DNA from: Platanthera guangdongensis
Lineage: Eukaryota > Streptophyta > Magnoliopsida > Asparagales > Orchidaceae
Length of the DNA stretch: 64,000 bases
Assembly: GCA_039583875.1 (NCBI GenBank)
Contig: CM077165.1
Span: 73,210,757-73,274,756 of the forward strand
Direction of reading: 5' to 3'
Part shown: positions 15,090-64,000 of the stretch, piece after piece
Position numbering within the stretch: position 1 is the stretch's first letter
Layout of the letters: each line of letters starts with the position of its first letter
Translations under genes and position numbers: made by a program
Notes under the pieces: model-generated
Told to the model about the DNA's origin: nothing
The model's database searches: none
Seen by the model: only the letters and a program-made list of their open reading frames with translations

Positions 15090-15126
15090 TAGGGTTTGGA
15101 GAAATTTTGAATTTAGAGAAGAGAGA

Positions 15127-15529: not shown

Positions 15530-15552
15530 ATTTTACTTAGCCAATTTTTAAA

Positions 15553-21056: not shown

Positions 21057-21276
21057 GGCTTCATTTGTTTTAGCGGTGGCGGATCGATCCGGCGGGTGGA
21101 AACGGAGAGTTCGAACCGGAGGGGGGAGGTGGCTGCTCCAAACGGAGCTTTTTGGGGTGTTTCTCAAGGCGTGTGGGTGGAAACGGAGCAAACGCCGCCG
21201 GAGGTTCATTTGTTTACCCTCCTTCCGGCGGCGTTTGCCCAAAACGGAGTTGCGAAATGCCCAAACAAATAAAGCC
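21057..21276. mobile_element. PIF/Harbinger-type (Tourist-like) MITE in solo LTR
   Basis: GGCTTCATTTGTTT at the left end and AAACAAATAAAGCC at the right form inverted repeats with one mismatch. TAA at 21054-21056 and 21277-21279 is the 3-bp duplication typical of Harbinger elements. The related LTRs of A1 and A2 lack this segment. GC-rich centre, 220 bp, no coding capacity. Confidence 0.88.
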
Positions 21277-23190: not shown

Positions 23191-23201
23191 CTCTGATACC
23201 A
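23191..23201 (-). other. A2 primer-binding site
   Basis: On the - strand TGGTATCAGAG starts two bases inside the 5' LTR. It is complementary to the 3' end of initiator methionine tRNA, the usual copia primer for minus-strand DNA synthesis. Confidence 0.88.
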
Positions 23202-23203
23202 CT

Positions 23204-25150
23204 TGAAAGAAATAGTTCCTAACCTCCTAGAGGGGGGGGGGGAGGGTGAATAGGTGAACTTTTTCTTTTTACTTTAAAGACAGACAAACTGTTATGAACT
23301 TTAAGCAGCAAATGCAATTTTACAGCTATCACAACACAGCAACCACAAAAACAAACATTCATAGAGTGCACACAGTGTTTATAGTTGTTCCCCAAGGTCT
23401 GGGTACATCCACTTTCCCCCTTCACCTATCTAGTAGTGTACTAGATTCGGCCTAACTTCAGCACTTCTCCTCAGATCCTCAGATCTTACACTCAGAACCC
23501 CAAACAGGTTCCTACAAATCAGAGTGTCCCCACTCCTACAACTCAGGCACAAAGCCCTACCACTCAGTCTTCAACAAGACCTACACTCAGGCTAAACAAC
23601 CCTACCTCAGCCCTCAACAAGGCCTACACTCAGAGAATTGATTCTCCTACACTCAGTCTCAAAAGCCCTACCTCAGCTTTTATAGATTTAGGCTTACAAC
23701 TCAGATTCCTTATGATCCTACACAAATATAATAGAAAAGTTTTTAGATCACCACTCAGTTTTTGAGAGAATGAAGAGGGCAATCTTCTTGATCAGTTCTT
23801 GATAGCACTGATTCCTGAGATCAACTTTGCCTTTGCTTTCTTCAAGGCTTCTTGAGTCTGAACTCAGTAAAGATGATCTTCTTGAAGTAGACCGGCTGAC
23901 AACTTCCTTCTTAGGATGAAGAATTAAATCTGGATCCTACTTTGCAGTCTGGTTCAGAATCTACTTCTTAAGAGATTTGATTAACAAGTCTCTTTCTTGA
24001 CTTCAATTACTGGAGTTCTCTCTCTCCAAGTAAATCTGAAGTTTCTTCAAAATACTGATTTACAGTTTTCTCTATATCTGTATTGATCTTCTTAATCTTC
24101 TGATTAATTCTTTAATAGTGTTCTCTCTTCTGATTGTAATCGATTCCTCCTGTTGAAGGAGAAAGGCCTTTATATAGTCTTCCTCCAAGGTAACCGGCTG
24201 ATCCGGTTTCTAACGAACTTCTGACAGCTCTGACAGTTGCAGTAGACCGGCTGAAATGACAGCTTTCAAGTCATCTAGTCACTTCTTGAAATCACTGTCT
24301 CTGTCTGAAAGTGTCGAGAATGATCTTCATTATGTGTCGACACAAATAGACCAAGTGTCGACACAAGTGAACTAAGTGTCGACACTAGCCTTGATGGTGT
24401 CGACACAACTCCTTGTATTGTTGTAACAGCTTCTCGACACTGCTTCTTCAGAATGTGTCGACACTGATTCTGTGTGTCGACATAAGCCTCCTGTAGAATG
24501 TGTCCTGACACTGAATGAGTGTGTCGACACAAGTACTTCTTCTTTAACACTTAGCTGAATTCTGTTGTGTGTCGACACATCTCCCTTGTGTCGACACATC
24601 TTCTTTTGTTGTTGATACTTGCTGAGTGTCGAAACATCTCCTTTGTGTCGACACATGCCTTCATGTGTTGAAACTTGATGAGTGTCGACACATCTCCTTT
24701 GTGTCGACACAAGTACTTTAACTTTGTTGAAGCTTGCTGATTATCGACACAGCCTCCTGGTGTCGACATATTTGATGTCGACAAAGCTTCTCTGGGTGTC
24801 GACACTGCCTCTAAGTGTTGATACAGATTATATTGACAATTCTTCACAGTGTGTCGACACTGTCTGTATGTGTCGACACTTTTCTTCTGGTGTCGACTCT
24901 GGCTTTCCTGGTGTTGACACAAATACTCCAAGTGTCGACACAGCTTCTCTAGGTGTCGACACAAGCCTTCATAAGTGTCGACACATCACCTCTAGGTGTC
25001 GACACATGAACTTAGAAACTTTTCTGTATTTCCTGCAAATACTTAACCTGCACATTTAAACTCAAAGCACATCAAATACACCTTGATGTATATCATTGAG
25101 TAGGGTGAGGCTTCTTCAAATCTGGTACACATTTTCCAATGTACCCAACA
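23204..25150 (-). repeat. A2 5' LTR
   Basis: 1947 bp, + strand TGAAAGAAATAG to TGTACCCAACA, followed by the target duplicate ATGTG. The GTGTCGACAC array is at 24311-25005 and the TATA box (TATATAAA on -) at 24176-24169. It would drive A2 transcription leftward into gag. Confidence 0.92.
24311..25005. repeat. GTGTCGACAC palindrome array, A2 5' LTR
   Basis: Copy of the array at 11169-11880. The two have drifted apart, with motif copies lost independently on each side, often at the central CG. Confidence 0.9.
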
Positions 25151-25155
25151 ATGTG

Positions 25156-30158: not shown

Positions 30159-30571
30159 GGGCGCTGCTATCCGCACCGCAGTTTTGCTTATTCATACCGC
30201 ACTTTCTCCTAATTTTTTATATCTTTTGAAAGTACGTTTTGTACATGCATTTTTAGGAAAAATGTTCAACACGAAAGTTGTAGATCTCGACGTGATCTAC
30301 AACTTTCATGTTGAACATTTTTCCTGAAAATGTATGTACAAAGTGTATTTTCAAAAGACGCGAAACTTGCACGTATTTCTCAAGTACGTCCTGTACATGC
30401 ATTTTTAGGAAAAATGTTCAACACGAAAGTTGTAGAACTCGTCGAGATCTTCAACTTTTGTGGTGAACACGTTTCCTAAAAATGAATGTACAAGACGTAT
30501 TTTCAAAAGACATAAAAAATTAAGAGAATGTGATGCGAATAGCCAAAACTACTGTACGGATAGCAGCGCCC
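30159..30571. mobile_element. Hairpin MITE with long inverted repeats
   Basis: The left end GGGCGCTGCTATCC pairs with the right end GGATAGCAGCGCCC; with mismatches the inverted repeat extends for about 40 bp. The 8-bp duplicate TTATTTTA flanks it (30151-30158 and 30572-30579). Inside are two copies of a nearly perfect hairpin whose arms contain GTTCAACACGAAAGTTGTAG and its complement (about 30236-30345 and 30390-30500). 413 bp, no coding capacity. The 8-bp duplication fits hAT, but the ends could also be Mutator-like, so the superfamily is left open. Confidence 0.85.
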
Positions 30572-33917: not shown

Positions 33918-34258
33918 GTCCTCCTTAAATCTTAAGAATTTAGGGGCGGGGCATCTAGCTCAAGAATTGTTTATGTTCATTGACTAGAAAATTACTTAAT
34001 TACGATTCAAACAGTAAAAAAATATCTAAATAGATTAAATTTGAAATATGTTTCTTAAATTATTTATTTTTTCTCTTATTGTAATACAATTTGAGACTGT
34101 TTGAAATAAATGTTTGAATTAATTTTAGTTAATTTTGTCATGTTTTTAAATGATGCGATATTACTCAGGAGGTTATGCGTGCTGAAAATTATTATTTAGT
34201 AGTGTCATAGGTCACTTAGCGCTCCCGTTCCAAAATAATTATACTGGCTTAGTGAAAG
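33918..34258. other. AT-rich interval, nothing recognised
   Basis: No gene or repeat structure could be supported between the MITE and the LTR of element B. Confidence 0.5.
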
Positions 34259-35819
34259 TGTCCAATTGTCTACTTAAATCATCTACAGGGGATGAATAAG
34301 TGAGTTCTGTGTCTTTTTACGGAATAAAAATTGTACAAGAGATGCGCAAAAAATAAACAAGCAATCCACAGACGACACCAAAGATTATAGTGGTTCCCCA
34401 ATCTTGGGTACATCCACTCTCCACCTCACCGATCTAGCACCACGCTAGACTCGACTACTTCACTATTCTCTCGGATTGGAAAACAATCCTAAAACTCGGA
34501 ACAACGTTCCTACAACTCGGAGTAAAACCACTACTAAAATAACTCGGAGAACAACTCCTACAACTCGGAGAATAACTCCTACAATCTCGGAGAATAACTC
34601 ATACAAGAATAAAAATGGATTTACAATGAAATACACAAACTTGTCTTCACAGATCTGACTGATTCTCGGCCTCGTCCTTCTTGAGAAATTGTAAAGCCCC
34701 GTCAGAAAAGACGAGGAAGAAATCTGGGAACACTTCGATTTGAGAACGTAGGATCACCATGATCAGGAGAAGATTTGCAGATGTTGAAAAGCTTGATCAG
34801 TTGAAACCTTCTTGTCTGAATTTCTGGAACGAGAAGTTTGGCGATGAAGAACACGTCTAGTCGGCGGCGACGCTTCCCGATTTAGAATCTTGAAAAATGA
34901 TTCAGAATACTGTAAAATTCTTCTTAGGGTTTGTCGATTCTGACGTGACCCTTTATATGTCTTACATAACGGTCTGATTTCATTATTTACAATCCATGTG
35001 AACCAATCAAGAGTTAATCACATTTGAAATCAAAACCCGTCAGACACTTAGCGAAATTCAGATTCAGAACTATGTTTCTCGAGAGAAATAAGAATTACTC
35101 AAGTACAAGTTTCGTTTCTCGAGAAAGGATATAAGATTCTCGAGAAGAAACACTTGAGGAAAATATAGAAGATGAGTTCTGGTTTCTTGAGAATAGATAG
35201 ACTTACTCGAGAATAATTTTTCTGTTACTCGAGAACAAGAAAGCAGCTCGACAAAAGATTTCTATTTATCGAGTAAGAACATTTGGTTCCCGAGAACTAA
35301 CATTAGCTTTCTCGAGAAATGTCTTTGACTTTCTTGAGAAAGAGACTTAGAAAATTTCTGAGCTTAATTTTAAGGTTGCTCGAGAAAGTTAAGACCTACT
35401 CGAGTACTTCATGGTTTTCTTGAGAACTACACTCGACTTTCTCGAGAAAAAGACTTCTGCTATTCGAGTACCTGACTTAGGTAACTCGAGAAAAATACTT
35501 AAAAAAAATTTGTTAACTGAAAAATGATTTTCTTCTAAGAAACCAACAACAAGCCTTTTTCCCATAACCTTAGTACTTGAAAATGAAGTGTGTCCCAATA
35601 GAGAGGTTACATACGAGTCAACACCACAGATCACACAATGAGAGATTACATTGTGCGGCCCTTTGTTTGGTGACCCATTGTAAACTGACATTGGTCTACA
35701 CTTGACAATTATAACCTGCAAGCACTCAATTTGAAAAGGCATCAAATACAAACTTAATTTATCTTAGTTCAAGGGTGACTTCGTACAAATTTACGTTATT
35801 GTGGATACAATACCCAACA
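34259..35819 (-). repeat. Element B 3' LTR
   Basis: On the + strand it ends ATACAATACCCAACA at 35819. The left end TGTCCAATTG is chosen by comparison with the end of the related LTR at 38451 and is less certain. U3 holds the CTCGAG array (35076-35491); CATATAAA on - (about 34958) is a candidate TATA box. R/U5 has ACTCGGAG repeats and the block TGGTTCCCCAATCTTGGGTA, shared in form with the A-family LTRs. Confidence 0.7.
35076..35491. repeat. TTCTCGAGAA palindrome array, element B LTR
   Basis: CTCGAG-centred 10-bp palindromes and variants (TTCTTGAGAA, TACTCGAGTA, AACTCGAGAA) recur about 17 times in 415 bp. Several copies have the central CG changed to TG. Position in U3 is the same as that of the GTGTCGACAC array in A elements. 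Confidence 0.88.
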
Positions 35820-36141
35820 ATCTTCGCTTATTTATAGAAGTCAGAACCCTCCAAACTAAGGTGAATTACATCAAGATCAACAAACAGAATAATTGGTAGA
35901 AATGCTATGAAATAGAAGATTTATATCATCAAAATTTAAAGATTTATATATATAGACATTGTCAAGGAAAAGTCCTATTCCACAAAATCTCATATAGGAA
36001 ACTTATGATCATCTTCAATTATTTCTTGCTATGTTGTTGATGCTGCCTCTGATATTTCTCTTCTTGTTTTTTGAAGAACATGAACGAATTTGGAAAGTAC
36101 TTGGGTGGTCTGGGGGGAGTAGTAGGGTATTCACGACCATA
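35820..36141 (-). other. Element B 3' non-coding part
   Basis: Between the LTR and the end of ORF3. The polypurine tract expected at the LTR edge is eroded (complement of ATCTTCGCTTATT). Nothing else recognised. Confidence 0.6.
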
Positions 36142-40510: not shown

Positions 40511-40756
40511 TTTGGTTCCAGTCAACTTAAATGAATTTGTGACGAATTCTTTTAAGGGGTGGTGAGCACATGTGTGCGTCATCGTTATAACATCAAAAAG
40601 AACCCATGAATGTCCACTTAGGAATGAAAATACACTTATTTTGTGGAATCTGAGTGTTCCAATGATTGTTTTAAGCAATCTGTTTGTCATCTAATGAAGG
40701 GTCTTTGCTATTATAGGCGGCTAGGAGCGGTGTTGGGCAATCGAAATGCCCGCAAT

Positions 40757-42854
40757 TGAAAGATATGGTACCTAAACACCTAGAGGGGGGGGGGTGAATA
40801 GGTGACCTAATCCTTTTCTAACTTTGTTGGCAGCCAAACAGTTATATCACAGATTTCTAACTAGTTTATTACAGCAATCAGCAATAATCAAACAAACACA
40901 GATCATCCACAGCACAAACACAGCACAACACACAGTGTTTTATAGTGGTTCCCCAAGATATGGGTACATCCACTTTCCCCCTTCGCCTATCTAGCAGTGT
41001 ACTAGATTCGGCCTAACTTCTCCACTGTCTCAGAACCCAAATTGGTTCCTACCTCAGGCCCAAAGCCTTACACTCAGCTTTATCCCAAAGCCTACACTCA
41101 GCCAATCAAGGCCTACACTCAGCCAATCCAAGGCCTACACTCAGAGATCTATATCTCCTACACTCAGGCTAACAAGCCCTACCCTCAGCCTTTATAAATA
41201 TAGGCTTACAATCACTCAGATCCAATGGATCCTACAAGTTACAAATGTAATACAGATAATGACTCTACAACTCAGAATTACAGGAGGGGAGTTGAGAGAT
41301 TCTTGATGAGTTCTTGGAAGAACTCAGCTGGATTCACCCTGACTTAGCTTTCTTCAAAGCTTCTTAAGTAGAACTGAATAAGGCTGAATCCTCCGCAGTT
41401 GTTCCTTGACCTCTGCTACTTAAGATCCAGAATTGATTCTGAATCCTTCTTCTCAGCCTAGTTCCTGAGGCTGATTTCTTGGAAGGAGCCCTCTCTCTCC
41501 AACTTCTTAGATCTGCAAATGGAATGCAAGATCTTCTTGTGTTGATACTTTGTGTACCACTTTTCTGATTACTTGAATAATCTGTACCACTTGTTAATCA
41601 CTTGATCAATTCTTTCAACAACAGTTTCTGTAAACTGTGGGTGCCTATTTATAGCCCTTCTTCATGGTAACCGGCTGGTCCGGTTCATAACTGACTTCTG
41701 ACATCTCTGACAGTTGCTGTAGACCGGCTGGATCGGCAGCTGTCATGTCAACCAGTCACTTCTTGAAAATCTCTAACTGTTTATAAGTGTCGAGACTTTC
41801 TGTCTTTAAGTGTCGACACTTATAGTCCAAGTGTCGACACATGTTGTATAAGTGTCGACACAAGTCTACAAGGTGTCGACACAATTCCTTGTATGTCTCA
41901 ACACAGATTCTTCTGCATGTGTCGACACTGAAATTGAGTGTCGACACAAGTACTTGTTCTTCTAGCTTATGCTGTATTCTTCTAAGTGTCGACACATCTC
42001 CTTTGTGTCGACACAACTTCTTGTGTTGAATCTGTCTAGTGTCGACACTGCTTCTTGGTGTCGACACATAGTCTTCTATGTTGAATCTTGCTGAGTGTCG
42101 ACACAGCTCCTTGTGTCGACACACAGTCTTGTCGTTGAGACTTCAGCTGAGTGTCGACACATTCCTTTAGTGTCGACACTTGTACTTAGAATAATTTGTT
42201 GCTCTTTCTATTCTTTGCTAAGTGTCGACACAGCTCCTTGTGTCGACACTTTCTTCCAGTGTTGAGTCTTCAGCTGTGTGTCGACACATTGTTCTGACAC
42301 ATACTTCAAATGTTGACTCTTCTGCATAGTGTCGACACTTTGTGTTGAGTGTCGACACTTACTTCAAGTGCTGACTCTTCTGCATAGTGTCGACACATTA
42401 TGTTGAGTGTCGACACTTGTACTTAGACTCTGCAGACTTTTGCTGAGTGTCGACACAGATCCAAGTGTCGACACTTTCTGGTGTAGACACAGCTTCACTG
42501 ACTGTCGACACAGCTCCTTGTGTCGACACTTTCTGTCTGCACTTTTCTTCACTGAGTGTCGACACAGCTCCTAGTGTCGACACTTTCTGTCTGGTGTCGA
42601 CTCTGCTTCCCAGGTGTCGACACAATGACTCCAAGTGTCGACACTGCTTGTCTGGGTGTCGACACATAGTCTTCTCAAGTGTCGACACTTTCCCTCTGGG
42701 TGTCGACACATGGACTTAGAAACTTTTTGCTTCAGTTCAGTACTTTCTTAACCTGCACAAGTAACTCAAACATACATCAAATACATTATGATGTATATCA
42801 TTGAGATGGGTGAGGCTTCTTCAAATCAGGTACATTTGACCAATGTACCCAACA
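40757..42854 (-). repeat. A1 3' LTR
   Basis: On the + strand TGAAAGATATGG to TGTACCCAACA. Reading along -: palindrome array 42709-41787, TATA box (TATAAATA, 41653-41646), then about 890 bp of R/U5 with ACACTCAGCC repeats (about 41070-41190), the conserved block around 40944-40994 and a G-run. Confidence 0.95.
41787..42709. repeat. GTGTCGACAC palindrome array, A1 3' LTR
   Basis: About 920 bp with tens of copies of GTGTCGACAC or close variants, spaced 10-40 bp apart with no fixed period. Spacers are short and partly repeated (for example CAGCTCCTTG). Directly upstream of the LTR TATA box on the - strand. Confidence 0.94.
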
Positions 42855-42866
42855 ATCTCCCCCTAT
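42855..42866 (-). other. A1 polypurine tract
   Basis: On the - strand TAGGGGGAGAT abuts the 3' LTR. It is the expected RNase H-resistant primer for plus-strand DNA synthesis. A2 has the same tract at 12026-12037. Confidence 0.88.
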
Positions 42867-43150
42867 TTGGAGAAGTCATAACCCTTAGTCAATGATATAC
42901 ACCATTCATAATTAAAAATTACAAAATGATGTAAAGCAGATTATAATCAGCAGGGTTAACATGAACATGTAAAACTTCACATATACACATTCAATATTGC
43001 AGAATGAACAAGAAATAGACACATACTCAGAACAATCATGAAAATATATTTATCATAAATTGTTGTAACATTTTTCTAATACATCTTTAATGATTTACAA
43101 AAATGTTTCTCATACAAAAGATTACAACAATCTTCAAATTAATTCCTAAT

Positions 43151-46000
43151 CTATTTCTGATTAGGTTCTTTGATAACAATTCCTTTGCCAGATTTGACTT
43201 TAGCCTTGACAGCAGCAGCAGCAGTAGGCTCAGCATCAGCAGGATTCTTGCCTTTTGAGTCCTTCTTCTTTTGTTCTTCAGCCTTGATTTTCTGTCTCTC
43301 AAAATAGTGGTATGGCTTGGGGAAGTACTTGCTAGGCTCCACAGCTGTAGGAGGTAGCTTTCCCATCTTAGCCTTCCTTCTGTGCTGAACAATGGCTTCT
43401 TGCCTGATCTCATGCTTCCTCCATTCTGCTTCAGAGAACCACTTGTTTCTATCAGTAGTGTTGTCTTTAACAGCTTTCCAGGCAGTAAGAATTATGTTTC
43501 TAGAGGTAGGACTCCATTGTTCAAAGTCTGGCTTTAGTTCAGCTTGTTCCCTAAACCTTTTCTTTGACAACCTTGCCTCTACTTCTTTGTCTAAGGCCTC
43601 TTACATAGCTTCTGTGATAGGTTGAACAACCTTTTCTAAATGGACATTGTCCTTGCCCTCAGGTGGGCTATACATTGTGCTCACCTCTGCTTGAATCATT
43701 TCAAAATTTGGAGGTGGATAAATGACTTGAGCTACTTCTTGTGGCTCACCTCCAAAATATGCAAGGTTCAGTCCATATTCAGCAACTTCATTGTCATCAT
43801 ACAGGGGAGGATATCCAAGTGTAGCCCTGATGGAATTGGATATCCACTTAGCATGTTCAGAACTAGCCTTGACTAACACTCTCTCCCCCTTTATGACTTC
43901 TTGGGCAACATGATCTCTTACATCATCCTTCTGGAATCGGATTTGACCATCCAAGTACCTGATTCCATCTTTAAAATAAGGTCTAAGCTTTGTAAGTTGT
44001 TCAGAGATTGCTTTCTGGGAATTTTGTATTGCAGTTTTGACAGCAGTAATCTCAGCTTGGAATATTTTATCAAAGTCAGCCTTTGCAGCAGCAGCAGATG
44101 TAGAAGGTTCAGCAGACTTATTCTTCAACTCAGTGACTATAGCATTGTGGGAGGCAGTCAAATTATCATTCATTCTTAACTGATTCTCCAGCACATATCC
44201 TTGCTTTAATGCTACATCATCTACCTGAGCCTTGATCTTCTCTTGGTGAGTTGCCAAATAGACTACTGCATTCCCACCCTTGTGGAAGCAGTCAGTCATC
44301 TCCTTCTTGTTCAGGTTCATTTCAAACCTTATTGACTTGATATCTTGTGCAAGGTCAAACTGTAGGGACTTGTGCCCTTCATCCACATAAGCCTCTATTG
44401 CCTTCCTTTGCTCATCCAACTTGATCTGCATGGCAATCATCATAGCACTATAATCAACTGTTGGAGCTTGTTGAACTATAGGCTGTGGGGCAATGGATTG
44501 CAAGGCTTTCTTGTAATTCTGACTTCTTCTTTTAAAAACATAGATTTTCTTCTTCTTGGCCCTAGCACTCTCCTCATCCTCAGAGGCAGAAGTGCTGGCA
44601 ATATCAACTCTATTCTTAGGGCTCTCAGGTTTGTCTGCTTGCACATCAAGTGCCTTCTCAGTCTCTGGCCTTAAAGGCTCATCCTGAACTGATATGTGCT
44701 CCCCCTCAGCAGCAGCACTCTTATCTTCAGCAGCAACCTTGTCCATATCAAAATCCTCTTGATCTAAATTCAGAAAGAGGTCTTCCATTGTGTATTCAGG
44801 AGGTGACTGTGCAGGAGAAGTACTTGGTTCTTCAACTACTTGAGTAGTATCTGGAACATTTTGCACAACAGCAGATGTGTCTTCAAGAACAACATCTGGA
44901 GCTTGGCTAGGTAGCTGAGTTTGCTGAGGAACATCAGACAAATCAGCATCTTCTATAAGATATTCTAAAGTTTTTAAGTCAGTGAGTACCTCTTGAATAA
45001 TGATGGTGGCTTGCTCACTGTCCAGAGTAGATGGTTCTTCTACTACTGGAAGCTCCCCCTGGCTGGGATCCCTATGGATGAGGCTAGCTTGAGGCAGCTC
45101 CCCCTGGATCTCAGCTACATCTTGAGGAGCAGGAGTCTTTACCACTGTCTCTTCCTCCTGATCATCAGGTGTGAACACCACCTGTTCTTCACTTTCAGAA
45201 CTGCTGGAGGACTCTTGTGCCACAGCAGCAGTTTTTCTCTTCTTCCTGGGAGGAGTGATTTTCTTAGTAACTTGCTTCTCAGGGGTAGGCATATCCTTTG
45301 ACAGCACCCTTTCCCACCTAGAAAATATCCTGGAATCCATCTTTCTCATATGATTGATCTTGCTTCCAGCAGCTATGCTCATTACCTCTGGTATTGTACC
45401 AGCCAGGTAGAGACTTATAATTCTGCCCAAATTGGGCTTCTTCAGACTTTCCTTGATCTTCTCATAGATTACCATTGACCAATCTGTTCTTATGGTGAAG
45501 ATAATTCTTGTCATGACATTGAACATTGAGGCTGACACCCTGTCATGCCCTCCAGGCTTACTGAGAATGACCTTTCCCACAATTTCAGACAGAAATTTTC
45601 CTTGACTGTTCATGCCTTTCCTGTTAAAGACAGAACCTATCTTCAGCTTTGGATCAAGTCCACACCAGGTAAGAGCTTCCCTGGTCTTGGATGTAGAAAC
45701 TTCTTCTTCATCTTGAGTCTTAGGTAGCTGGAGTACCTTCCTTACACTTTTTGGTGAGACCTTGTCTTTGGATCCATGCACTCTGGATTTGATTCTATAT
45801 CCAGAGTCATCAACTGTAGCTCCAGTAAGGAATTCAAGAACTTCCTTCTTCCAAATCTTGGTTGGTTCTGAAACCAAATATTCTAGTCCAGAATCGCTGA
45901 CTAGGGTTACCACCGATTGGATTTCTTGATCTCCATCATCGAATGCGCCGCGCACAAGTTCATAGCCTTCGTTAACGTTCTCCTCGAGCTTGGGAGACAT
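43151..46000 (-). pseudogene. A1 ORF3, about 950 codons with one in-frame stop
   Basis: Start chosen at ATG 46000 (MSPKLEENVNEGYELVRG) because A2 and B have an ATG at the same place and because the frame upstream runs only through the palindrome array. 799 codons are open to TAA 43603-43601; the same frame then continues for 149 codons to 43151, and A2 shows coding similarity across the break, so the stop is probably a mutation. The N-terminal 240 residues look folded, with KIGSVFNRKGM and NLGRIISLYL. Next comes a basic cluster (PPRKKRKTA) followed by Ser/Glu-rich acidic sequence, a second basic cluster (RAKKKKIYVFKRRSQ), a long helical part likely to form coiled coils, and a basic tail (RRKAKMGK). 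No signal peptide or membrane segment is apparent. Function unknown; a nuclear, DNA-binding role is only inferred. Confidence 0.8.
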
Positions 46001-46034
46001 TAGGGTTTGGAGAATTAGTCTTGAGAAAAGAGAA

Positions 46035-46481
46035 ATGTCGACACAATAGTTGTGGTCTCGAAACTTTGAAAGCGTGTCGACAATCAGAGACATAACCCTA
46101 TTTATACCTTTTTGATTTTGAAGGTGAACAGGCGGGACAGCTAGCTTAACATGTGTCGACACTGGCAATAAGTGTCGACACTGACTTATAATGTCTCGAC
46201 ACGCATGTGTCGACACAAGTTTAGTCAACAGATATTATGTGTCGACACTTGGTTATGTGTCGACACAACATAACTCGATACATCGTCGAGACTTTACTTA
46301 GAAAATTCTGAGTAAAACATAAGTGTCGACACCATATTGGATGTGTCGACACCTACTTGACATGTGTCGACACTAACATTCTGAAGTGTCGACACTACAT
46401 TCCTAGATGTGTCGACACGTTTTTCCTGAAGTGCCGACACCACTATTCTGTGTCGACATAGACTTGTCTATGTGTCGACAC
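46035..46481 (-). promoter_or_regulatory. A1 internal palindrome array plus TATA box before ORF3
   Basis: The interval between the pol stop (46515) and the ORF3 ATG (46000) holds about 15 GTGTCGACAC-type palindromes, the same motif as the LTR array. On the - strand GGTATAAATAGG (core 46106-46099) lies 99 bp before the ATG, with most palindromes upstream of it, as in the LTR. Inferred role: promoter and enhancer for a separate ORF3 mRNA. Confidence 0.75.
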
Positions 46482-46514
46482 CTTTTTACTTAGTCAATTT
46501 TCTAGTCTGTAAAC

Positions 46515-49500
46515 TTAGTCTAAGTTTATCATACCTAGGTCAATTTTGAATCTATTGAACTTAGCTTCTTCTAGTGGCTTAGTAAACATATCAGCTACTT
46601 GTTCATCTGTTTTAACATATTCAAGTGAAATATCTTCTCTTTCTACATGTTCTCTAAGAAAGTGATATTTAATCTCAATATGTTTTGTCCTACTATGAGA
46701 TACAGGGTTATTAGCTATTGAAATAACACTTGTAGAATCACAGTAAAGTGGAGTTCTACTTACCTGAAATCCATAGTCCTCTAGCTGATGTTGAATCCAC
46801 AGAAGTTGAGCACAACAACTTCCTGCAGCCACATACTCTGACTCAGCTGTGGAGATAGCCACACTAGTCTGCTTTTTGCTGCTCCATGAAATTAGAATTC
46901 CACCTAGGAATTGACAGGTTCCAGTAGTGCTCTTTCTATCCTCTTTGCATCCTGCAAAGTCTGCATCTGAATATCCTATTAGATCAAAGTCTCCATTCCT
47001 AGGGTACCAGAGGCCTAGATAGGGAGTGCCCTTTAGATATCTCAAAATTCTCTTGACTGCAGTCAAGTGAGACTCTTTGGGGCAGGCTTGATACCTGGCA
47101 CAAACACATGTAGCATACATGATGTCTGGTCTACTAGCAGTTAAGTACAATAGGGAGCCAACTATCCCTCTATACAAGGTTTCATCCACAGGTTTCCCTG
47201 CATCATCCTTGCTAAGAGACATACTTGACCCCATAGGAGTCTTCATGGTGCTGGATGAATCCATACCATACTTCCTTATGAGTTCTAGGGTGAACTTGGA
47301 CTGACAAATGGACAAACCACTTTCAGTCTGTTTAACTTGGAGACCCAAGAAAAACTTCAGCTCTCCCATACTACTCATTTCAAACTGACCTTGCATAAGT
47401 TTTGCAAACTTTTTGCAAAGGCTGCTTTCAGTAGACCCAAATATAATGTCATCTACATATATTTGGACAAGTATGACTTTGCCTCTAGATTCCCTAAGGA
47501 ATAGAGTCTTATCTATTTTCCCCCTTGAGAACTTGTTCTCAATGAGGAAACTAGATAGGGTTTCATACCAAGCTCTAGGAGCTTGCTTTAACCCATATAA
47601 AGCTTTCCTAAGTCTATAGACATAATGAGGTAGAGTTGGATCAACAAAACCTGAAGGCTGCTCCACATAGACTTCTTCTTTAAGATTACCATTTAAGAAT
47701 GCTGACTTGACATCCATCTGGTAAACCTTGAATCCTTGATAGGTTGCATAGGCCAAGAACATCCTTATGGCCTCCAGTCTGGCTACTGGGGCAAAGGTTT
47801 GATCAAAATCAATACCTTCTTCTTGCCTATATCCTTTTGCAACCAGTCTTGCTTTATTCTTTATGATGACCCCTTGTTCATCCATCTTATTTCTGTAGAT
47901 CCACTTAACTCCTATTACATTGTGGTCTTTAGGTTTTGGAACCAATTCCCAGACCTTGCATCTCTTGAACTGATTTATCTCTTCTTGCATAGCTTCAGTC
48001 CATTGTGGATCTTGTATTGCTTCTTCAAATCTTTTAGGTTCAACTTGAGACAAAAAGCTGGAATAAATTACAGCATTCTGATATCTGCTCCTTGTTTGAA
48101 CTCCTTGTCTTGGATCCCCAATAATCAGCTCTACTGGATGATCTCTAAGATGCCTGTGGGCTGGAGGCATCCTAGCTTCAGGTTGAACCTCTTCAGCATC
48201 TGCATCATGCTGTATACCTTGGATTTCTTCAGCAACTGGCACATGTAGTTCTCCCCCTGGACAGCAGCTACTTTCCTCTCCTTGCTGTCTAGCAGCTGGC
48301 ACTTCTTCTATAGTAAGCTTGTCCAATTTCTTTGTCAAACCTGTGGGGCTACATACATTGCTAGACAACTCATTGTTAATTAGTTTTGTCTCATCAAAAA
48401 CTACATGCACTGATTCTTCTACAACTTGTGTAGTCAAGTTGTAGACTCTATAAGCCTTACTATTATTGCTGTACCCAACAAATATTCCCTCTTGGGACTT
48501 GGCAGCAAACTTTGTTAAGTAAGACTTCCCATTGTTAAGTATGAAGCATTTACAACCAAAGATCCTAAAATAGGATAGGTTTGGTTTCCTGCCTTTCACT
48601 ACTTCATAGGGGGTCTTGTTTAGCCTTTTAGTGATGGTAGCCCTATTTATCACATGACATGCAGTGTTAACTGCTTCAGCCCAGAAATATTCTGGCAGTA
48701 ATGTATCACTAAGTAGGGTTCTACCAGCCTCTATCAAGGTCCTATTCTTCCTTTCAGCAATGCCATTTTGCTGATGTGTTCTAGGTGAAGAGAATTCTTG
48801 AAATATCCCAAAGTCTTCATATAGTTTTGTCATGCTTTCAGACTGAAACTCAGTATCATGGTCACTTCTAATTTTGACCACAGTACTATTTAGTTCATTC
48901 TGAATTTGCTTGACAAAGCTGGAGAAGACACTAGGTGTTTCAGATTTCTGCCTTAAGAAGAACACCCAGGAAAACCTTGAGTAGTCATCAACAACTACAA
49001 AGGTATAGACCTTCCTACCTAAGCTGTGAACTGGCATTGGACCAAATAGATCCATATGCAAGAGGTATAAACACCTCACAGCATCTTTGTTATCTATGCT
49101 TCTAAAGGTGGATTTAGTCTGCTTGCCCTTTTGACAAGCTGAGCAAATACCATCTTTGACACACTTAACTTGAGGACCATTCCTCACTAACTCTTTGCTA
49201 AAGAGTTTGCTAATAGTCTTGTAGTTAAGATGAGCTAGCCTCTTGTGCCACTTGACACAATGAGAGACTGTCTCATCAGCTATAAGACAAACAGGAGAAC
49301 CATTGTTCTCAATCATAATGTCTAGACAGTAGACATTCCTCTTTCTATATCCTGTCAAAATGATCTCTTGATCACTTGACCTCTTGATATGACAACCATT
49401 TTTAACAAATGAGATGTCATACCCTACATCACTTAACTGACTTATACTTATAAGGTTGTGTTTCAACCCTTTAACATAAGCCACTTGAGTAATGGTAACA

Positions 49501-49682
49501 AGGTTTGAAGAAATGTTACCAAACCCTTTGATGATTCCTTTTTCAGAACCACCAAAGGTCACTTTAGGACCATTTTTGATTGGAATATAGTCCTTCAGTA
49601 GTCCCCTTGTTCCAGTCATATGTCTGGAACATCCACTATCCAAGTACCATGTTGAGGTATGGCCACTTGGATTCACCTGCAA
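46515..49682 (-). CDS. pol: A1 pol: protease, integrase, RT, RNase H (intact)
   Basis: 1055 codons without a stop. The aspartic protease [13 protein letters not shown] has Asp at residue 15. The integrase HHCC finger is at about 145-180 (CSACQKGKQ); the DDE residues are in [15 protein letters not shown] and [10 protein letters not shown] has [20 protein letters not shown] and the catalytic YVDDIIFG near residue 740. RNase H has [16 protein letters not shown] and ends [13 protein letters not shown]. All catalytic residues looked for are present. The protease signature and the third ORF place it in the SIRE lineage. The frame is the same as gag, with a single TAA between them at 49691-49689. 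The products would cut Gag, copy the RNA and insert the DNA. Confidence 0.95.
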
Positions 49683-49688
49683 AACAAA

Positions 49689-51731
49689 TTAATGAACCTT
49701 AGAACCCAAAGTAATCTTGGGTCCTTGGTGATTGTTAGTTTGCAACTTGACAATGCTACCTACTGGCTTTCCACCAGGTAACTTGCTACTCACCTTGGCA
49801 CTGGCATTGTGCCAACAATCCATTGCAAAATGGCCAATCTTGCCACAACACCAGCATTCAAACTTGTTGTACCTTTGCTTAGGTACAACCTTTGCTGTCT
49901 TGACTACAGCAGGCTTGTTGAATGTTGGGGCTTTGCCCTTGGACTTAAACTTGGACTGCTCAGTCCCTGCAGGTCTAACAAAACCCAGTCCAGCCTTGCC
50001 TTTATGATGAACAAATTCATCAATTAAAGGTAGCACTGATTTAGGTTTTGAAAACCTAGCAACCAAGTCCTTCTCCTTCTGAAGATTGTTCTCCAGACAC
50101 TTAATTTGATCATTCTTAAAAGTGATAGTTCCCATCTGAATCACAGTAATGTGTTTCAGCCTGGCTACCTCATTCAGTTTTTGATCAAATTGCTTCTCAA
50201 AATCAGTTGCAGCAGCTTTAAGTTCAGCAATTTCCTTTGCCTGACTTTTGGCAAGGGATTTGCTTTTCTTATAAGCCTGTAACAGCACCTTATATTCATC
50301 TATGAGCTGATGAATATCCTCCTCAGACTCAGATATATTCTCATCACTTGATGAAGAAAAATTTGATTCTGAACTTGAACAAGAAACTGAACTTGAACAT
50401 GAACCTTGTACCTGACTGGGTCCTGGCTGCTCCAGGATTTTGGCACTGTCTGTCAAAGCCATTAGTCCTTGGCAATGACTGTCTTCTTGTTCATAAATTG
50501 ACTCCAAGATCTGCATGAATTCTTCCTCTTCTTCTTCAGCAAATAGCCCTATGTAGGCTTCAGCATCAGTATCAGTGTCTGAAGAAGAAATATCTGAAAG
50601 AGTCTTCTCATTCTTGGCAACAAAAGACTTCTCTTTCTTCCCTTTGAAGTGAGTCTTTTTCCTGTCACTGGATTCTTTTCTTTTCTCAGGACAATCTGCA
50701 ATAACATGACCCTGTCTATTGCAGCAGTAGCACACAATCTTTGATCCAGTTGCCTTGCTTGTCTTTGTCTTTTTCCTGTCCTTCTTTGAAGGCTTTTTCT
50801 CCTGATACAAGACTTCTTTTCCCTTGTAAGTAGATGGTCTGGACCTCCACTGTTTCTTCTTCAGGAATTTCTGAAAGTGTCTAGTGAAGGCAGCAAAGTC
50901 TTCATCACTTTCACTGCTTGTAGACTTTGTACTGACAGACTCTTCTGACTCAGATTCAACTACCTCTGGAGGTGGAGTTGATGACTTAGTCATGCATTTT
51001 CTGGGAACTTCTGTCTTGAAAGCAACAGTCCTTTCCTTGTGCTCAGTCCTAGTAGATTTCTCCTCCTCTTTCCTCACTGTCAGCTGCATCTCATATGACA
51101 ATAACTTGCCAAACAGTGTAGGAGGTGGAATTTCTCCCAACTTTGCCATTTCTCTTATGACACAGATCTTGGTGTCCCAATCTTTGGTTAGGGACCTTAG
51201 GAATTTGTCATTCAGTTCATAGTTGCTGAACTCTCTTCCATAAGACATGAGTTCATTAACTATTCTATAGAACTTCTTGTAGCATTCAGTGATGCTATCT
51301 CCCTTTCCTTGCCTAAAGCTCTCATACTCTTGATTAAGCAAGGACTTCCTATCTTGCCTAACTTCTTCAGATCCTTCCATATATACTATAAGAGTGTCCC
51401 ACATCTCTTTTGCTGTCTTACAGTGAATTAAGTTCTGAAAAGTGGCATCATCAATGGCACTCACTATTATGTTCTGAGCCCTCTTGTCCATGGTGGCTAG
51501 GACAATTTCATCCTTGGTCATCTCAGAGAAATCCTTTGGAGTCCTCTGATTTGCATCCAATACTGAAATCTTCATTGGCACAAAAAGCCCTTCCTTTACT
51601 GTGATGTATATTCTGGGGTCAGAGGCTTCCATAAATAGCCTTACCCTCTCTTTCCAGATTCCAAAGATCTCCTTCCTGCATATGGGTAACTTCATGGAAC
51701 CCAACTCTTTGTGATTCTCATAAGAACCCAT
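49689..51731 (-). CDS. gag: A1 gag, 680 codons with two zinc knuckles
   Basis: Starts at ATG 51731 (MGSYENHKELGSMKLPICRK), about 110 bp inside the primer-binding site; A2 starts at the same place. The capsid-like N-terminal third includes EMWDTLIVYMEGSEEVRQ and NELMSYGREFSNYELNDK. Zinc knuckle CYCCNRQGHVIADC is near residues 332-345, an acidic/serine-rich part at about 390-460, a coiled-coil-like part at about 480-560, and a second knuckle CWCCGKIGHFAMDC near 624-637. It ends at TAA 49691-49689, in frame with pol. A stop at the same place in A2 suggests it is a feature of the family. Confidence 0.94.
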   Translation of the reverse strand: MGSYENHKELGSMKLPICRKEIFGIWKERVRLFMEASDPRIYITVKEGLFVPMKISVLDANQRTPKDFSEMTKDEIVLATMDKRAQNIIVSAIDDATFQNLIHCKTAKEMWDTLIVYMEGSEEVRQDRKSLLNQEYESFRQGKGDSITECYKKFYRIVNELMSYGREFSNYELNDKFLRSLTKDWDTKICVIREMAKLGEIPPPTLFGKLLSYEMQLTVRKEEEKSTRTEHKERTVAFKTEVPRKCMTKSSTPPPEVVESESEESVSTKSTSSESDEDFAAFTRHFQKFLKKKQWRSRPSTYKGKEVLYQEKKPSKKDRKKTKTSKATGSKIVCYCCNRQGHVIADCPEKRKESSDRKKTHFKGKKEKSFVAKNEKTLSDISSSDTDTDAEAYIGLFAEEEEEEFMQILESIYEQEDSHCQGLMALTDSAKILEQPGPSQVQGSCSSSVSCSSSESNFSSSSDENISESEEDIHQLIDEYKVLLQAYKKSKSLAKSQAKEIAELKAAATDFEKQFDQKLNEVARLKHITVIQMGTITFKNDQIKCLENNLQKEKDLVARFSKPKSVLPLIDEFVHHKGKAGLGFVRPAGTEQSKFKSKGKAPTFNKPAVVKTAKVVPKQRYNKFECWCCGKIGHFAMDCWHNASAKVSSKLPGGKPVGSIVKLQTNNHQGPKITLGSKVH

Positions 51732-51842
51732 GTTTCTTGAAGTTCTTGAATTTCTTGAATTTCTTGAATCTGTTTTCTGACTTAGACTGTTTCTGCCAAA
51801 CAGGATCTCCTTAGACTGTTAGTCCTTGTTTTGAGGAACCTG

Positions 51843-51854
51843 GCTCTGATACCA
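51843..51854 (-). other. A1 primer-binding site
   Basis: On the - strand TGGTATCAGAGC lies two bases inside the 5' LTR and is fully complementary to the 3' end of initiator Met tRNA. Confidence 0.92.
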
Positions 51855-51856
51855 CT

Positions 51857-53955
51857 TGAATGATATGGTACCTAAACACCTAGAGGGGGGGGGGGTGAAT
51901 AGGTGACCTAATCCTTTTCTAACTTTGTTGGCAGCCAAACAGTTATATCACAGATTTCTAACTAGTTTATTACAGCAATCAACAATAATCAAACAAACAC
52001 AGATCATCCACAGCACAAACACAGCACAGCACACAGTGTTTTATAGTGGTTCCCCAAGATATGGGTACATCCACTTTCCCCCTTCGCCTATCTAGCAGTG
52101 TACTAGATTCGGCCTAACTTCTCCACTGTCTCAGAACCCAAATTGGTTCCTACCTCAGGCCCAAAGCCTTACACTCAGCTTTATCCCAAAGCCTACACTC
52201 AGCCAATCAAGGCCTACACTCAGCCAATCCAAGGCCTACACTCAGAGATCTATATCTCCTACACTCAGGCTAACAAGCCCTACCCTCAGCCTTTATAAAT
52301 ATAGGCTTACAATCACTCAGATCCAATGGATCCTACAAGTTACAAATGTAATACAGATAATGACTCTACAACTCAGAATTACAGGAGGGGAGTTGAGAGA
52401 TTCTTGATGAGTTCTTGGAAGAACTCAGCTGGATTCACCCTGACTTAGCTTTCTTCAAAGCTTCTTGAGTAGAACTGAATAAGGCTGAATCCTCTGCAGT
52501 TGTTCCTTGACCTCTGCTACTTAAGATCCAGAATTGATTCTGAATCCTTCTTCTCAGCCTAGTTCCTGAGGCTGATTTCTTGGAAGGAGCCCTCTCTCTC
52601 CAACTTCTTAGATCTGCAAATGGAATGCAAGATCTTCTTGTGTTGATACTTTGTGTACCACTTTTCTGATTACTTGAATAATCTGTACCACTTGTTAATC
52701 ACTTGATCAATTCTTTCAACAACAGTTTCTGTAAACTGTGGGTGCCTATTTATAGCCCTTCTTCATGGTAACCGGCTGGTCCGGTTCATAACTGACTTCT
52801 GACATCTCTGACAGTTGCTGTAGACCGGCTGGATCGACAGCTGTCATGTCAACCAGTCACTTCTTGAAAATCTCTAACTGTTTATAAGTGTCGAGACTTT
52901 CTGTCTTTAAGTGTCGACACTTATAGTCCAAGTGTCGACACATGTTGTATAAGTGTCGACACAAGTCTACAAGGTGTCGACACAATTCCTTGTATGTCTC
53001 AACACAGATTCTTCTGCATGTGTCGACACTGAAATTGAGTGTCGAGACAAGTACTTGTTCTTCTAGCTTATGCTGTATTCTTCTAAGTGTCGACACATCT
53101 CCTTTGTGTCGACTCAACTTCTTGTGTTGAATCTGTCTAGTGTCGACACTGCTTCTTGGTGTCGACACATAGTCTTCTATGTTGAATCTTGCTGAGTGTC
53201 GACACAGCTCCTTGTGTCGACACACAGTCTTGTCATTGAGACTTCAGCTGAGTGTCGACACATTCCTTTAGTGTCGACACTTGTACTTAGAATAATTTGT
53301 TGCTCTTTCTGTTCTTTGCTAAGTGTCGACACAGCTCCTTGTGTCGACACTTTCTTCCAGTGTTGAGTCTTCAGCTGTGTGTCGACACATTGTTCTGACA
53401 CATACTTCAAATGTTGACTCTTCTGCATAGTGTCGACACTTTGTGTTGAGTGTCGACACTTACTTCAAGTGCTGACTCTTCTGCATAGTGTCGACACATT
53501 GTGTTGAGTGTCGACACTTGTACTTAGACTCTGCAGACTTTTGCTGAGTGTCGACACAGCTCCAAGTGTCGACACTTTCTGGTGTAGACACAGCTTCACT
53601 GACTGTCGACACAGCTCCTTGTGTCGACACTTTCTGTCTGTACTTTTCTTCACTGAGTGTCGACACAGCTCCTAGTGTCGACACTTTCTGTCTGGTGTCG
53701 ACTCTGCTTCCCAGGTGTCGACACAATGACTCCAAGTGTCGACACTGCTTGTCTGGGTGTCGACACATAGTCTTCTCAAGTGTCGACACTTTCCCTCTGG
53801 GTGTCGACACATGGACTTAGAAACTTTTTGCTTCAGTTCAGTACTTTCTTAACCTGCACAAGTAACTCAAACATACATCAAATACATTATGATGTATATC
53901 ATTGAGATGGGTGAGGCTTCTTCAAATCAGGTACATTTGACCAATGTACCCAACA
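51857..53955 (-). repeat. A1 5' LTR
   Basis: 2099 bp, + strand TGAATGATATGG to TGTACCCAACA. Array at 52888-53810, TATA box (TATAAATA on -) at 52754-52747. Transcription would run leftward through the primer-binding site into gag. Confidence 0.95.
52888..53810. repeat. GTGTCGACAC palindrome array, A1 5' LTR
   Basis: Near-identical to the array at 41787-42709. Of the few LTR differences, several fall in palindromes (for example GTGTCGAGAC and GTGTCGACTC here against GTGTCGACAC there). Confidence 0.94.
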
Positions 53956-60552: not shown

Positions 60553-62084
60553 GAATAGAGGTATCAAAATACTCTCTTTGCTTAGCCAACATGGCTTCTA
60601 TTTTATTTAAGATAGTGTCGTCAATAATGACTCCAGTTTGAGGAGGTGGAGGACGTAGAATTTGAGCTGTCTAGGGAACTACTTCTTCAATGAGCACAGT
60701 AGATGTGGAGGTCTAATTTCTTCTAGCAGTTGTTGTTTCATCTTCAACATCTTCACCTATGATAGTGGGAATGTTGAAGTGTAGGCTTGGGAGAAGTGGT
60801 TCAACATCTTTAAGAGATAATTCTTCAGCATCAGAAATTGAAACTATCTCTTCATCTTGCTCCCCCTCAACAAGAGACCGGGGGCTGAGAAGATTCTGGT
60901 TTAGATGGATATTTTGGTTGAGATGATTTTTCTGGTTGAGAAGATTCTTCTGGTTGAGATGGATTTTCTTCAGGCAAAGGGGAGGGAGGTTCTTTAGAGG
61001 TGAGCTCCTCTATCATCTTGTCAATGTCAGCTACTGTAGATATTACTTGATTTTCTACCGGGGCATCAGTAAGAAGTTCTTGATCAGATAGGTCAGCAAC
61101 AATAAGACCTGAGCTATCTTCTTGGATAGAAGTGCCCTTTGTAGCAGCAGATGGAGTTGTAGCTTCTTTTATGACTATATGTTTAGCAGCTAGTGGAGTT
61201 GTGACTTGGGCTTGAATATCAGATAGGACTATGGCTGGAACTGGAACTTGAGCAGACTGCACTGTCACTTATATAGATGGAGCAGGCTCCCCCTCAATAA
61301 CTGCACCATCTGTGCCAGTTATTTGATGAGAGTGGGGAGATGGGGTCCCGACTTCATCTACAACTGTCCTTGTAGCTGGAGGGGATTGGCCTGGCCTTTG
61401 GAGTTTGATTTCCCATCTCTGTATGGAGGTTATTGAAATCTTCTTCATGTGATGAATGTCCATTCCCTTGGCTAAGGTAAAGACATCTGGCCTCAACTGA
61501 TTTAGATAGAGGGACAGAATTCTTCCATAGTTGGGGCTTTTTATACTCTCTTTGATCTTGTCAAATATCATCATCCCCCATTGAAATATCTTTCTACAGA
61601 TTATTGCTGTCATCATGCCAAAGAAATCAGTGGTGATATAACTTATTGAACTGGTGCAATATAGGAGAACCTTTCCCAGAATGTCGGCAAGTAGCTTGCT
61701 CTCTGCATTCATATGCTGTCGGCGAGTTGTGAGGGTTGAGTCGAGAAGGACACAAAAGCTGTAAGCCCTCTCATAGTCTGGACCATCTAAGTCATCTTCC
61801 TCATCAATCACCGGCAGCCGTAGAAGTTGAGAAACAGAGGTTGATGTCATCTTGACCTTGATGTCGCCTACCTTGGTTTTTAGAACTTTGCCATTACGCT
61901 TGACCTTGGCATTCTAGAAGAACTCTTCCACATCATAAATAAGAACTTTGCATGGGTGTTGAAGATCAAAGGTCAGTCCAGCGGTGTCGAGCAATATAAG
62001 AACATTTCTGAAGTCGTCAGAAATATCGATGATTCTAGTTGAAATGAGTTCACTACTGATGCCTATCTTTGATGCGGGAGCCAT
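60553..62084 (-). pseudogene. Element B ORF3, N-terminal part
   Basis: Starts at ATG 62084 (MAPASKIGISSELISTRI) and aligns with the N-terminal region of A1 ORF3: VEEFF against VLEFL, then FDKIKESIKSPNYGRILSLY against YEKIKESLKKPNLGRIISLY, and MKKISITSIQRWE against MRKMDSRIFSRWE. An in-frame TAG near 61915, a stop at 61269 and another near 60867 break it. The middle is Ser/Glu/Pro-rich with SQPEKSSQPKYPSKPE-type repeats (60870-60960). It reads into the insertion site of the Tekay element and continues at 38538. Confidence 0.8.
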
Positions 62085-62173
62085 TGAATGAAGAATTGAA
62101 AGTCTGCTAGCCGGAGAGAAGAGAAACAGGGTTGTTTGCCGGAGGAGCGGTGGAGACGAAGAAGATGAAGGGT

Positions 62174-62465
62174 TTTCTCGAGAAGGAGATTTTAAAATCC
62201 GAGATTTGGATTTTTCAGGACTTATTCTATTTATATAAACCCTAAATCTTGATGATTAAGGAAAGAAATAATAATAAAATACCTGAAGTATGGTGGTTGG
62301 AGTGCCCGGGTGCAAATTTCAAAATTTGAACTTTGAGAAAACTCTGCATCTGATTTCTCGAGTGAAAGAAATTTCTCGAGAATAAGCTCTCATGTTCTTG
62401 AGTAGAGATATCATTTCCGAGAAGCAAACCTGATGTTCTCGAGAATAAACTAAGTACTCGAGTAA
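62174..62465 (-). promoter_or_regulatory. Element B internal palindrome array plus TATA box before ORF3
   Basis: Between the end of pol and the ORF3 ATG lie about seven TTCTCGAGAA-type palindromes (62174, 62355, 62371, 62436, 62456 and degenerate ones), the motif of this element's own LTR rather than that of the A family. On the - strand TATATAAATA (core 62235-62228) lies 144 bp before the ATG. Same layout as A1 and A2. Confidence 0.7.
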
Positions 62466-62579
62466 TGAAGTTGTTCTAGATAAGTGAAATCCTGACTTAG
62501 AATTTTCTTGATTTTGAAGGGTATTCTGATTCTTGAAATTTACTGTGAGGCCATTTTCTTCAGCATTTCTTATTGAGCA

Positions 62580-64000
62580 TGCCAAGTTCTGTTTTGAAGA
62601 ACGAGAACTTGTCCTCGTTCAGTGGCTTCGTGAATATGTCTGCAACCTGCATGTCAGTTGGAACATACTAGAGATTGATGTCTCAATACTCCATATGCTC
62701 CCTGATGAAATGGTATCTCAGCTCTATGTTTTTTGTCTAGCTGTGAGAGACTGGGTTGTTGGCTATTGCATTTGCACTGGAGGAGGCACATAACAGTGGG
62801 ATGTCCTTGACCTTCAAGTTATAGTCTTCAAGTTGATTCTTGATCAAGAGTAATTATGCACAACAACTGCTGGCAGAAATGTATTCTGACTCGGCCGTTG
62901 AGATTGCGGCATAATTTTGCTTCTTACTGCTCCATGAGATGAGTCTCCTTCTAAGGAATTAGCAAGTCCCGGAAGTGCTCTTTCTATCATCTTTACTACT
63001 TGCAAAATCTGCATCTGAAAATCTAATTAGCTCGCTATCATTATTTCTTGGGTATCATAAGCCAAGATTTGGTATGCCCTTAAGGTATCTCAAAATCCGC
63101 TTTTCAGCTGTGTAATGAGATTTCTTAGAGTTCACCTGATATCTAGCACACACACATGTTGAAACAATGATGTCTGGCCTACTAACAGTAAGGTAGAGCA
63201 AGGATCCAATTATACTTCTGTGCTTGGTTTCATCAAAAGGTTTTCCTTTCCCATCCTTGTACAGAGACATAGCTAAACCCATTGGAGTCCTCATAGAGGT
63301 TGCATTCTCCATTCCGAATTTCTTAATCAACTCTTTGGTGAACTTCGTCTAAGAGATAAAAATTCCATCCTCAGATTGTATCACTTGAAGTCCTAAGAAA
63401 TACTTCAGCTCTCTCATACTGCTCATTTCAAACTTCCCTTGCATAAGTTTGGAAAACTTCTTGCAAAGGTTGTCATCAGTATAACCAAAAATTATGTCAT
63501 CGACATAGATTTGCACTATCAAAATCTTGCCTTTAACTTCTCTAAGAAATAATGTTTTGTTTATCTTTCCCCTTGTGAACTTGTTCTCAAGAAGAAAGTT
63601 AGACAGCGTTTCATACCAAGCTCGTAGAGCTTGTTTCAAACCATATAATGTTTTAAATAATAAATAAACAAAATAAGAATGTTCAGGGTCAACAAAACCT
63701 GGAGGTTGTTCCACATACACTTCTTCCTTTATGTCACCATTAAGGAAGGCTGACTTCATATCCATTTGGTAGACAATGAAGCCTTTGAGTGCAGTATATA
63801 CGAGGAACAACCTGATTGGCACCAGTCTTGCCACTATAGCATATGTCTGATCGAAGTCGATCCCTTCTTCTTATCTGTACCCTTTGGCGACGAGTCTGAC
63901 TTTGTTCTTTATTATGGTTCCATCTTCGCCCATCCTGTTCCAGTAGACCCACTTTTTTTAAATCACATTCTTTACTTTGGGTCTTGGCACAAGCTTCCAG
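62580..64000 (-). pseudogene. Element B pol: RT and RNase H, cut by window edge
   Basis: Read right to left: RT with QMDMKSAFLNGDI, YGLKQALRAWYE and catalytic [10 protein letters not shown] (about 63505-63480), then LTVSRPDII (normally AI or IM). RNase H has FSDADFASS and TAESEYIS and ends ADIFTKPLNEDKF near 62600. Stops near 62965 and 62860 replace Gln (CAA to TAA type), with others near 63345, 63875 and 62735. Integrase, protease and gag lie beyond the right edge. Confidence 0.87.

Follow-up and report, generated by a model that had tools for sequence, protein, structure and literature searches.

Nested Sirevirus-type elements in the window

The window, a stretch of 64 kb from the 4.25-Gb genome surveyed, carries three Sirevirus-type elements on its minus strand, termed A1, A2 and B. 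A1 (40753-53955) has LTRs at 40753-42854 and 51853-53955 that are 99.3% identical, and A2 (about 10069-25152) has an LTR identity of 94.6%. A plus-strand LTR akin to that of A1, possibly a solo LTR, is nested in A2 at 19546-21871 and holds its own array of the palindrome GTGTCGACAC. A further element, C (38536-60550), with LTRs of 91% identity and GAATA flanking both sides, is inserted in B and divides it in two, and A1 in turn sits inside C. A large inverted repeat at 30200-30532, whose 166-nt arms are 84% complementary and separated by 1 nt, lies distant from the palindrome arrays.

A1 combines a copia-type pol (RVT_2 match in Pfam, E 2.4e-75) with a large gag (a frame of 709 aa; Retrotran_gag_2, E 4.5e-20) and a zinc knuckle (zf-CCHC at 17.6 bits, under the cut-off of 20.8), the features that mark a Sirevirus (Ty1/copia). 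Its ORF3 (43604-46000, minus strand; 799 aa from the ATG) consists of a PF20167-like N-domain, an acidic middle, NLS-like clusters and a helical C-part.

The copy of B in the window is degenerate. The 3' end of its pol (RT/RNase H part; 62572-63999, minus strand) was located by tblastn with A1 pol at 68.5% identity and contains nine stops. Downstream of it lies the 5' part of ORF3 (61272-62084, minus strand), which encodes the PF20167-like N-domain, shares 27.6% identity with A1 ORF3 and is interrupted by one in-frame stop; the insertion of C lies further downstream. The 3' LTR (34252-35892, minus strand; approximate ends, given by the limits of similarity) is collinear with LTR pieces 3' of B-like ORF3s, and its assignment to B-type elements is supported by eight of the ten B-like elements fetched elsewhere in the genome, which show a homologous LTR downstream of ORF3. 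No 5' LTR of B turned up in the following 10 kb, which gave a single 50-bp match.

Palindrome arrays at the LTR and before ORF3

The first-pass annotation had claimed that each element family carries its own palindrome both in the LTR and before ORF3. In the window, TTCTCGAGAA occurs 18 times at up to one mismatch, versus 3.27 expected and a maximum of 8 in 100 shuffles. Seven copies are exact, four in the B LTR (35116, 35137, 35309 and 35439) and three before ORF3 (62175, 62373 and 62436), which agrees with the claim for B. The LTR array (35076-35491) has 12 copies at up to one mismatch. The internal array (62174-62465), which lies between pol and ORF3, is eroded in this copy, with three copies at up to one mismatch and eight at up to two, versus shuffle means of 0.02 and 0.28; one copy (62175-62184) is located between the TATA box and the ATG.

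The other palindrome, GTGTCGACAC, occurs 184 times at up to one mismatch in the window, versus 1.21 expected. In A1 it forms arrays in the 3' LTR (41787-42709; 5' LTR copy at 52888-53810) and before ORF3 (46035-46481), where a TATA box lies 106 bp ahead of the ATG. In A2 the arrays are found in the 3' LTR (11169-11880; 5' LTR copy at 24334-25005) and, by motif scan, at the internal site (15126-15528), so that both A elements likewise have the array at both sites. At up to two mismatches, GTGTCGACAC is absent from the two arrays of B; TTCTCGAGAA is absent at up to one mismatch from the four A arrays (3' LTR and internal, A1 and A2), in which one or two copies appear at two mismatches. The cores of the two families' palindromes are GTCGAC and CTCGAG.

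We surveyed 21 elements, comprising A1, A2 and B in the window and 18 hand-picked elsewhere in the genome. Ten B-like elements, which span 60-85% identity and were picked with a preference for open frames, came from 150 scored matches to B ORF3 (93,906 first-look candidates). Another eight came from 150 scored matches to the P0005-type ORF3 (102,526 first-look candidates), and for these the commonest palindromes were tallied, without a TTCTCGAGAA scan. From the A1-like matches, A1 alone entered the survey. This ORF3 type is very abundant and young-looking, with 150 scored matches at 94-100% identity from 103,657 first-look candidates.

An internal array is present in 20 of the 21 elements. The exception is L054, the ORF3 part of which is seemingly tandemly repeated, leaving a second ORF3 copy without a preceding array. 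The LTR array is visible in 18 elements, those of L052, L054 and L062 not being found in the pieces fetched. All 18 elements with both arrays visible have the identical palindrome at the two sites, in line with the claim. Among the B-like pieces, L055 and L082 each contain a single GTGTCGACAC copy at up to one mismatch.

Among the ORF3 N-domains, the nine A-type sequences share 68-93% identity with one another and the eight B-type sequences 53-83%, and identity across the two types is 29-33%; this count left out A2, B, L036 and L054. The palindrome is constant inside each ORF3 clade and differs between the two clades. The proposal that ORF3 follows motif type holds to this extent; co-evolution does not follow from it, as the two motif classes, each seen in one clade, are too few and represent a single switch.

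Promoter layout and motif spacing

The order of array, TATA box and start is alike at the LTR and internal promoters. Before ORF3, a TATA box was placed in 17 of 20 elements. In all ten A-type elements it starts 106-109 bp before the ATG, with motif copies at -83 to -86 in nine and at -44 to -47 in eight. Among the ten B-type elements scanned, it lies at -130 to -153 in seven and is absent in L044, L046 and L048, and a motif near -100 is found in nine. The internal-promoter TATA box of B, TATATAAATAG (62227-62237, minus strand), had been reported at 144 bp before the ATG; the box is present, and its TATA starts at -153/-151 from the ATG at 62084. In the LTR, a TATA box follows the last motif by 121-137 bp in seven of eight A-type and two of three B-type pieces. 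The misses are L077 and B, both with a stray last motif; in B, this motif lies further on and caused the scripted scan to overlook the TATA box TATAAAG (34951-34957, minus strand), which was found by eye about 118 bp beyond the last motif. The A1 LTR has a second TATA pattern 1 bp beyond the array. Judged from sequence, the layout before ORF3 makes an internal promoter of this gene likely, and two co-regulated promoters per element are very likely.

Both families, despite their different motifs, prefer about two helix turns between motifs. We counted gaps between neighbouring motifs at up to one mismatch, from 10 to 140 bp only, and these are descriptive counts because the elements are related and the gaps are not independent. 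Gaps of 17-23 bp make up 146 of 219 in the A LTRs (10 pieces), 73 of 118 in the A internal arrays (10 pieces), 52 of 91 in the B LTRs (9 pieces) and 15 of 37 in the B internal arrays (10 pieces), and gaps of 24-35 bp number 14, 3, 0 and 1, respectively. The long gaps of B-type arrays hold the register of the short ones, none of 2000 jittered sets being as good at the LTR and internal sites alike. The A-type long gaps do not hold it, as 1436 and 1068 of 2000 jittered sets were as good. What we claim is a preferred spacing, short of strict helical phasing.

ORF3 and its comparison with VANC

In the ORF3 of A1, NLS-like clusters of basic residues occur together with long helices predicted for the C-terminal part. 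No membrane segment is predicted, and no stretch of 19 residues exceeds a mean hydropathy of 1.45. These features bear out the earlier description of a protein with basic clusters, a coiled-coil-like part and no membrane segment. PF20167 (Transposase_32) matches A1 ORF3 at 17.6 bits, versus a cut-off of 45 bits; at E <=0.01 it is matched by 13 of 15 aligned ORF3 sequences (best 6.6e-9), and Pfam gave no match for L048. The middle of ORF3 in A1 and its relatives P0002-P0005 and P0007 contains an acidic-hydrophobic motif, E(Y/F)T(L/M)(E/D)(D/E)LF, which we take to resemble a transcription activation motif.

VANC proteins bind the motif of their own family and remove DNA methylation. Structural similarity search with a model of the A1 ORF3 N-domain gave VANC21 bound to DNA as the best solved-structure match, at weak similarity; the full-length model (mean pLDDT 46) was excluded from the search. 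In a second look, 11 other rows aligned over 47-90 residues, with titles mostly of calmodulin-kind calcium-binding proteins. Foldseek against BFVD returned 192 matches at E <=10 and none at E <=0.001. Sequence search of the PDB returned nothing with the noisy alignment A3; the clean alignment A4 gave two weak rows, and VANC was not among them. Pfam did not detect DUF1985 or DUF287 in ORF3, the domains described for VANC proteins (PMC5735166). A piece of the VANC21 chain used as query retrieved 23 proteins, 21 of which have a precomputed PF09331 (DUF1985). The genome family search, with 12 candidates scored, gave a sole DUF1985 match at E <=0.001, in L081 (1189-2052), which at 34 bits falls short of the 35.1 cut-off and also matches the plant mobile domain PMD (PF10536).

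In profile comparison, a combined PF20167 profile (SIRE and Athila) scored 25.8 against DUF1985 over 49 columns (E 0.009, probability 4.5%), with 50 column shuffles at 21.0 or below, and 25.0 against VANC alone, with shuffles up to 23.1. With DUF1985 as target, the SIRE-only profile reached 24.9, and its shuffles reached 23.3; with VANC as target it reached 24.3, a score equalled or exceeded by 3 of 50 shuffles. The Athila-only profile scored 13.2 and 16.8, respectively. When the target was only the orchid DUF1985 alignment, the combined profile reached 25.9 over 148 columns, its controls (39 column shuffles, one reversal) staying at 17.1 or below, and the SIRE-only and Athila-only profiles scored 17.4 and 14.9; adding the VANC piece to this alignment lowered the combined score to 19.8, and one control then scored 22.1. 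As a positive control, VANC against orchid DUF1985 gave a probability of 92.9%. Such shallow profiles are weak tools, since SIRE and Athila PF20167, which belong to one Pfam family, score only 22.5 against each other. These scores are suggestive of a distant relation between the PF20167-like ORF3 domain and DUF1985/VANC.

Relation to published Sirevirus boxes and to other additional-ORF elements

Palindromic RM boxes are known from 13 Sireviruses (Bousios et al. 2010, PMC2829016); in the nine that bear ENV, the linker holds additional boxes, almost all of them ahead of this gene. Because matching LTR and pre-env palindromes were thus published for nine Sireviruses in 2010, the two-site pattern is not new, and the core of our finding is a new pair of families following a published rule. 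The elements here share the RM-box architecture, in that palindromic boxes precede a TATA box in the LTR and also lie ahead of the ENV-like gene, but differ in the core, which is mostly CGG-CCG in the published boxes; Tnd-1 is likewise an exception in the table of that paper (PMC2829016). Bousios et al. found support for an internal promoter that was not conclusively identified (PMC2829016), compared with the TATA boxes placed here, and a 2012 paper counts an internal promoter among the expression mechanisms (PMC3414828). A term search of the main text of PMC2829016 gave nothing on spacing, helical register or DNA binding by the ENV protein.

Athila, which belongs to Ty3/gypsy, unlike the copia-type elements here, is described with a 3' additional ORF that likewise resembles PF20167 and carries a nuclear localisation signal (PMC11728184). 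PF20167 ORFs after a gypsy-like pol were also found in this genome. Three such Athila-like elements, L010 (930-1020), L006 and L030, have a short array of CGTCGACCGG with 2-4 exact copies 25-30 bp apart, located 300-390 bp before the PF20167 ORF. As an independent case of the two-site rule, Athila gave no support, because no CGTCGACCGG copy at up to one mismatch occurs in the 5.5 kb downstream of three elements, a stretch that should include the LTR, whose limits were set by the end of similarity; the array may be a plain tandem repeat. Retand/Grande elements resemble those here in that a long stretch between pol and the LTR contains tandem repeats as well as ORFs, of which many are predicted to bind DNA, but their additional ORFs are antisense and have other domains such as TRP28 (PMC11963269). 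For Grande, a title cited in that paper names a nuclear protein that has a promoter of its own.

A proposed family-specific reader of the arrays

We infer that the arrays are binding sites because they are palindromic, family-specific and preferentially spaced. Each family would have one sequence-specific, probably dimeric DNA-binding factor for its own palindrome, placed ahead of two promoters: the LTR promoter, which serves the whole element, and the internal promoter, which makes ORF3. One factor per family is likely on the sequence evidence. This factor would most likely be ORF3 itself, the PF20167-like N-domain recognising the palindrome in a manner similar to that of VANC with its own motif, the helical C-part pairing the subunits and the acidic part acting on transcription or silencing, so that ORF3 would switch on, or keep un-silenced, its own gene and LTR. 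ORF3 as the reader, and any anti-silencing effect, we likewise infer. We adopt the explanation as a whole tentatively, at a little under an even chance, and regard the identity of the factor with ORF3, taken by itself, as possible rather than probable.

It is plausible, at a likelihood only slightly lower than that of the explanation above, that the palindromes are read by a transcription factor of the host, or by a separate one for each motif, and that ORF3 borrows the enhancer for expression timed with the element. The four ENV-less Sireviruses (OPIE-2, PREM-2, Osr8 and Tnd-1) retain 8-9 boxes in the LTR but lack linker boxes (PMC2829016, Table 3); ORF3 cannot then be the sole possible reader, and this is the strongest fact against it in that role. 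Such elements could rely on ENV-bearing relatives, or their arrays could be read by a host factor. Comparison of the boxes with motif databases by Bousios et al. gave mainly sites of stress-related plant factors (PMC2829016), and arrays with a TATA box are an ordinary enhancer-promoter layout. A single host factor, however, leaves the family-specific words unexplained, since the motif differs between families in one host yet stays constant over the deep divergence of ORF3 within a clade.

The tandem-like appearance of the arrays, and the small-RNA hotspots formed by LTR palindromes of maize Sireviruses (PMC5311732), would also suit arrays that are mutual copies made by LTR/internal recombination or template switching, or small-RNA targets, with no dedicated protein. 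We consider this improbable. Compared by eye, the LTR and internal arrays of A1 have the 10-bp unit in common but not the spacers, an LTR-to-internal pair is absent among the 26 repeat families and pairs and the 70 longest self-matches of the window listed, and copying leaves the TATA boxes at fixed distances unexplained. Least probable, and by a low estimate, is that ORF3 has no connection with the arrays and serves as an envelope-like or particle protein, the internal array only supplying its promoter: the gene has been termed envelope-like, with transmembrane and coiled-coil domains (PMC3414828), but the hydropathy of A1 ORF3 and its nuclear-type basic clusters argue against this.

The reading with ORF3 as the factor resembles the VANDAL/VANC system, in which an element-encoded protein is paired with family-specific arrays of short, fast-changing motifs in non-coding regions (Hosaka et al. 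2017, PMC5735166). VANDALs, however, are Mutator-like DNA transposons, whereas the elements here are copia elements with LTRs and RT, and the VANC21 motif YAGTATTAY is non-palindromic, unlike the words here. A broader proposal, which we rate as rather unlikely, is that the Sirevirus env-like gene is a distant VANC-type DNA reader, with PF20167 and DUF1985 both belonging to a single superfamily of DNA-binding domains carried by transposons. In that case the same kind of anti-silencing or activation switch, with family-specific arrays at the element's own promoters, would serve LTR retrotransposons and Mutator-like transposons alike. The portions of PMC12844716, PMC13317346, PMC11728184 and PMC3414828 covered contain no link between the Sirevirus env-like gene and VANC, and our literature search, which lay mostly outside subscription papers and preprints, found no paper on the VANC21 structure.

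What the env-like gene of Sireviruses does was unproven in PMC2829016 and PMC3414828. If ORF3 reads the DNA of the arrays and is not an envelope protein, the gene and the arrays, two puzzles, would be explained together, and the VANC principle would reach very abundant plant retrotransposons.
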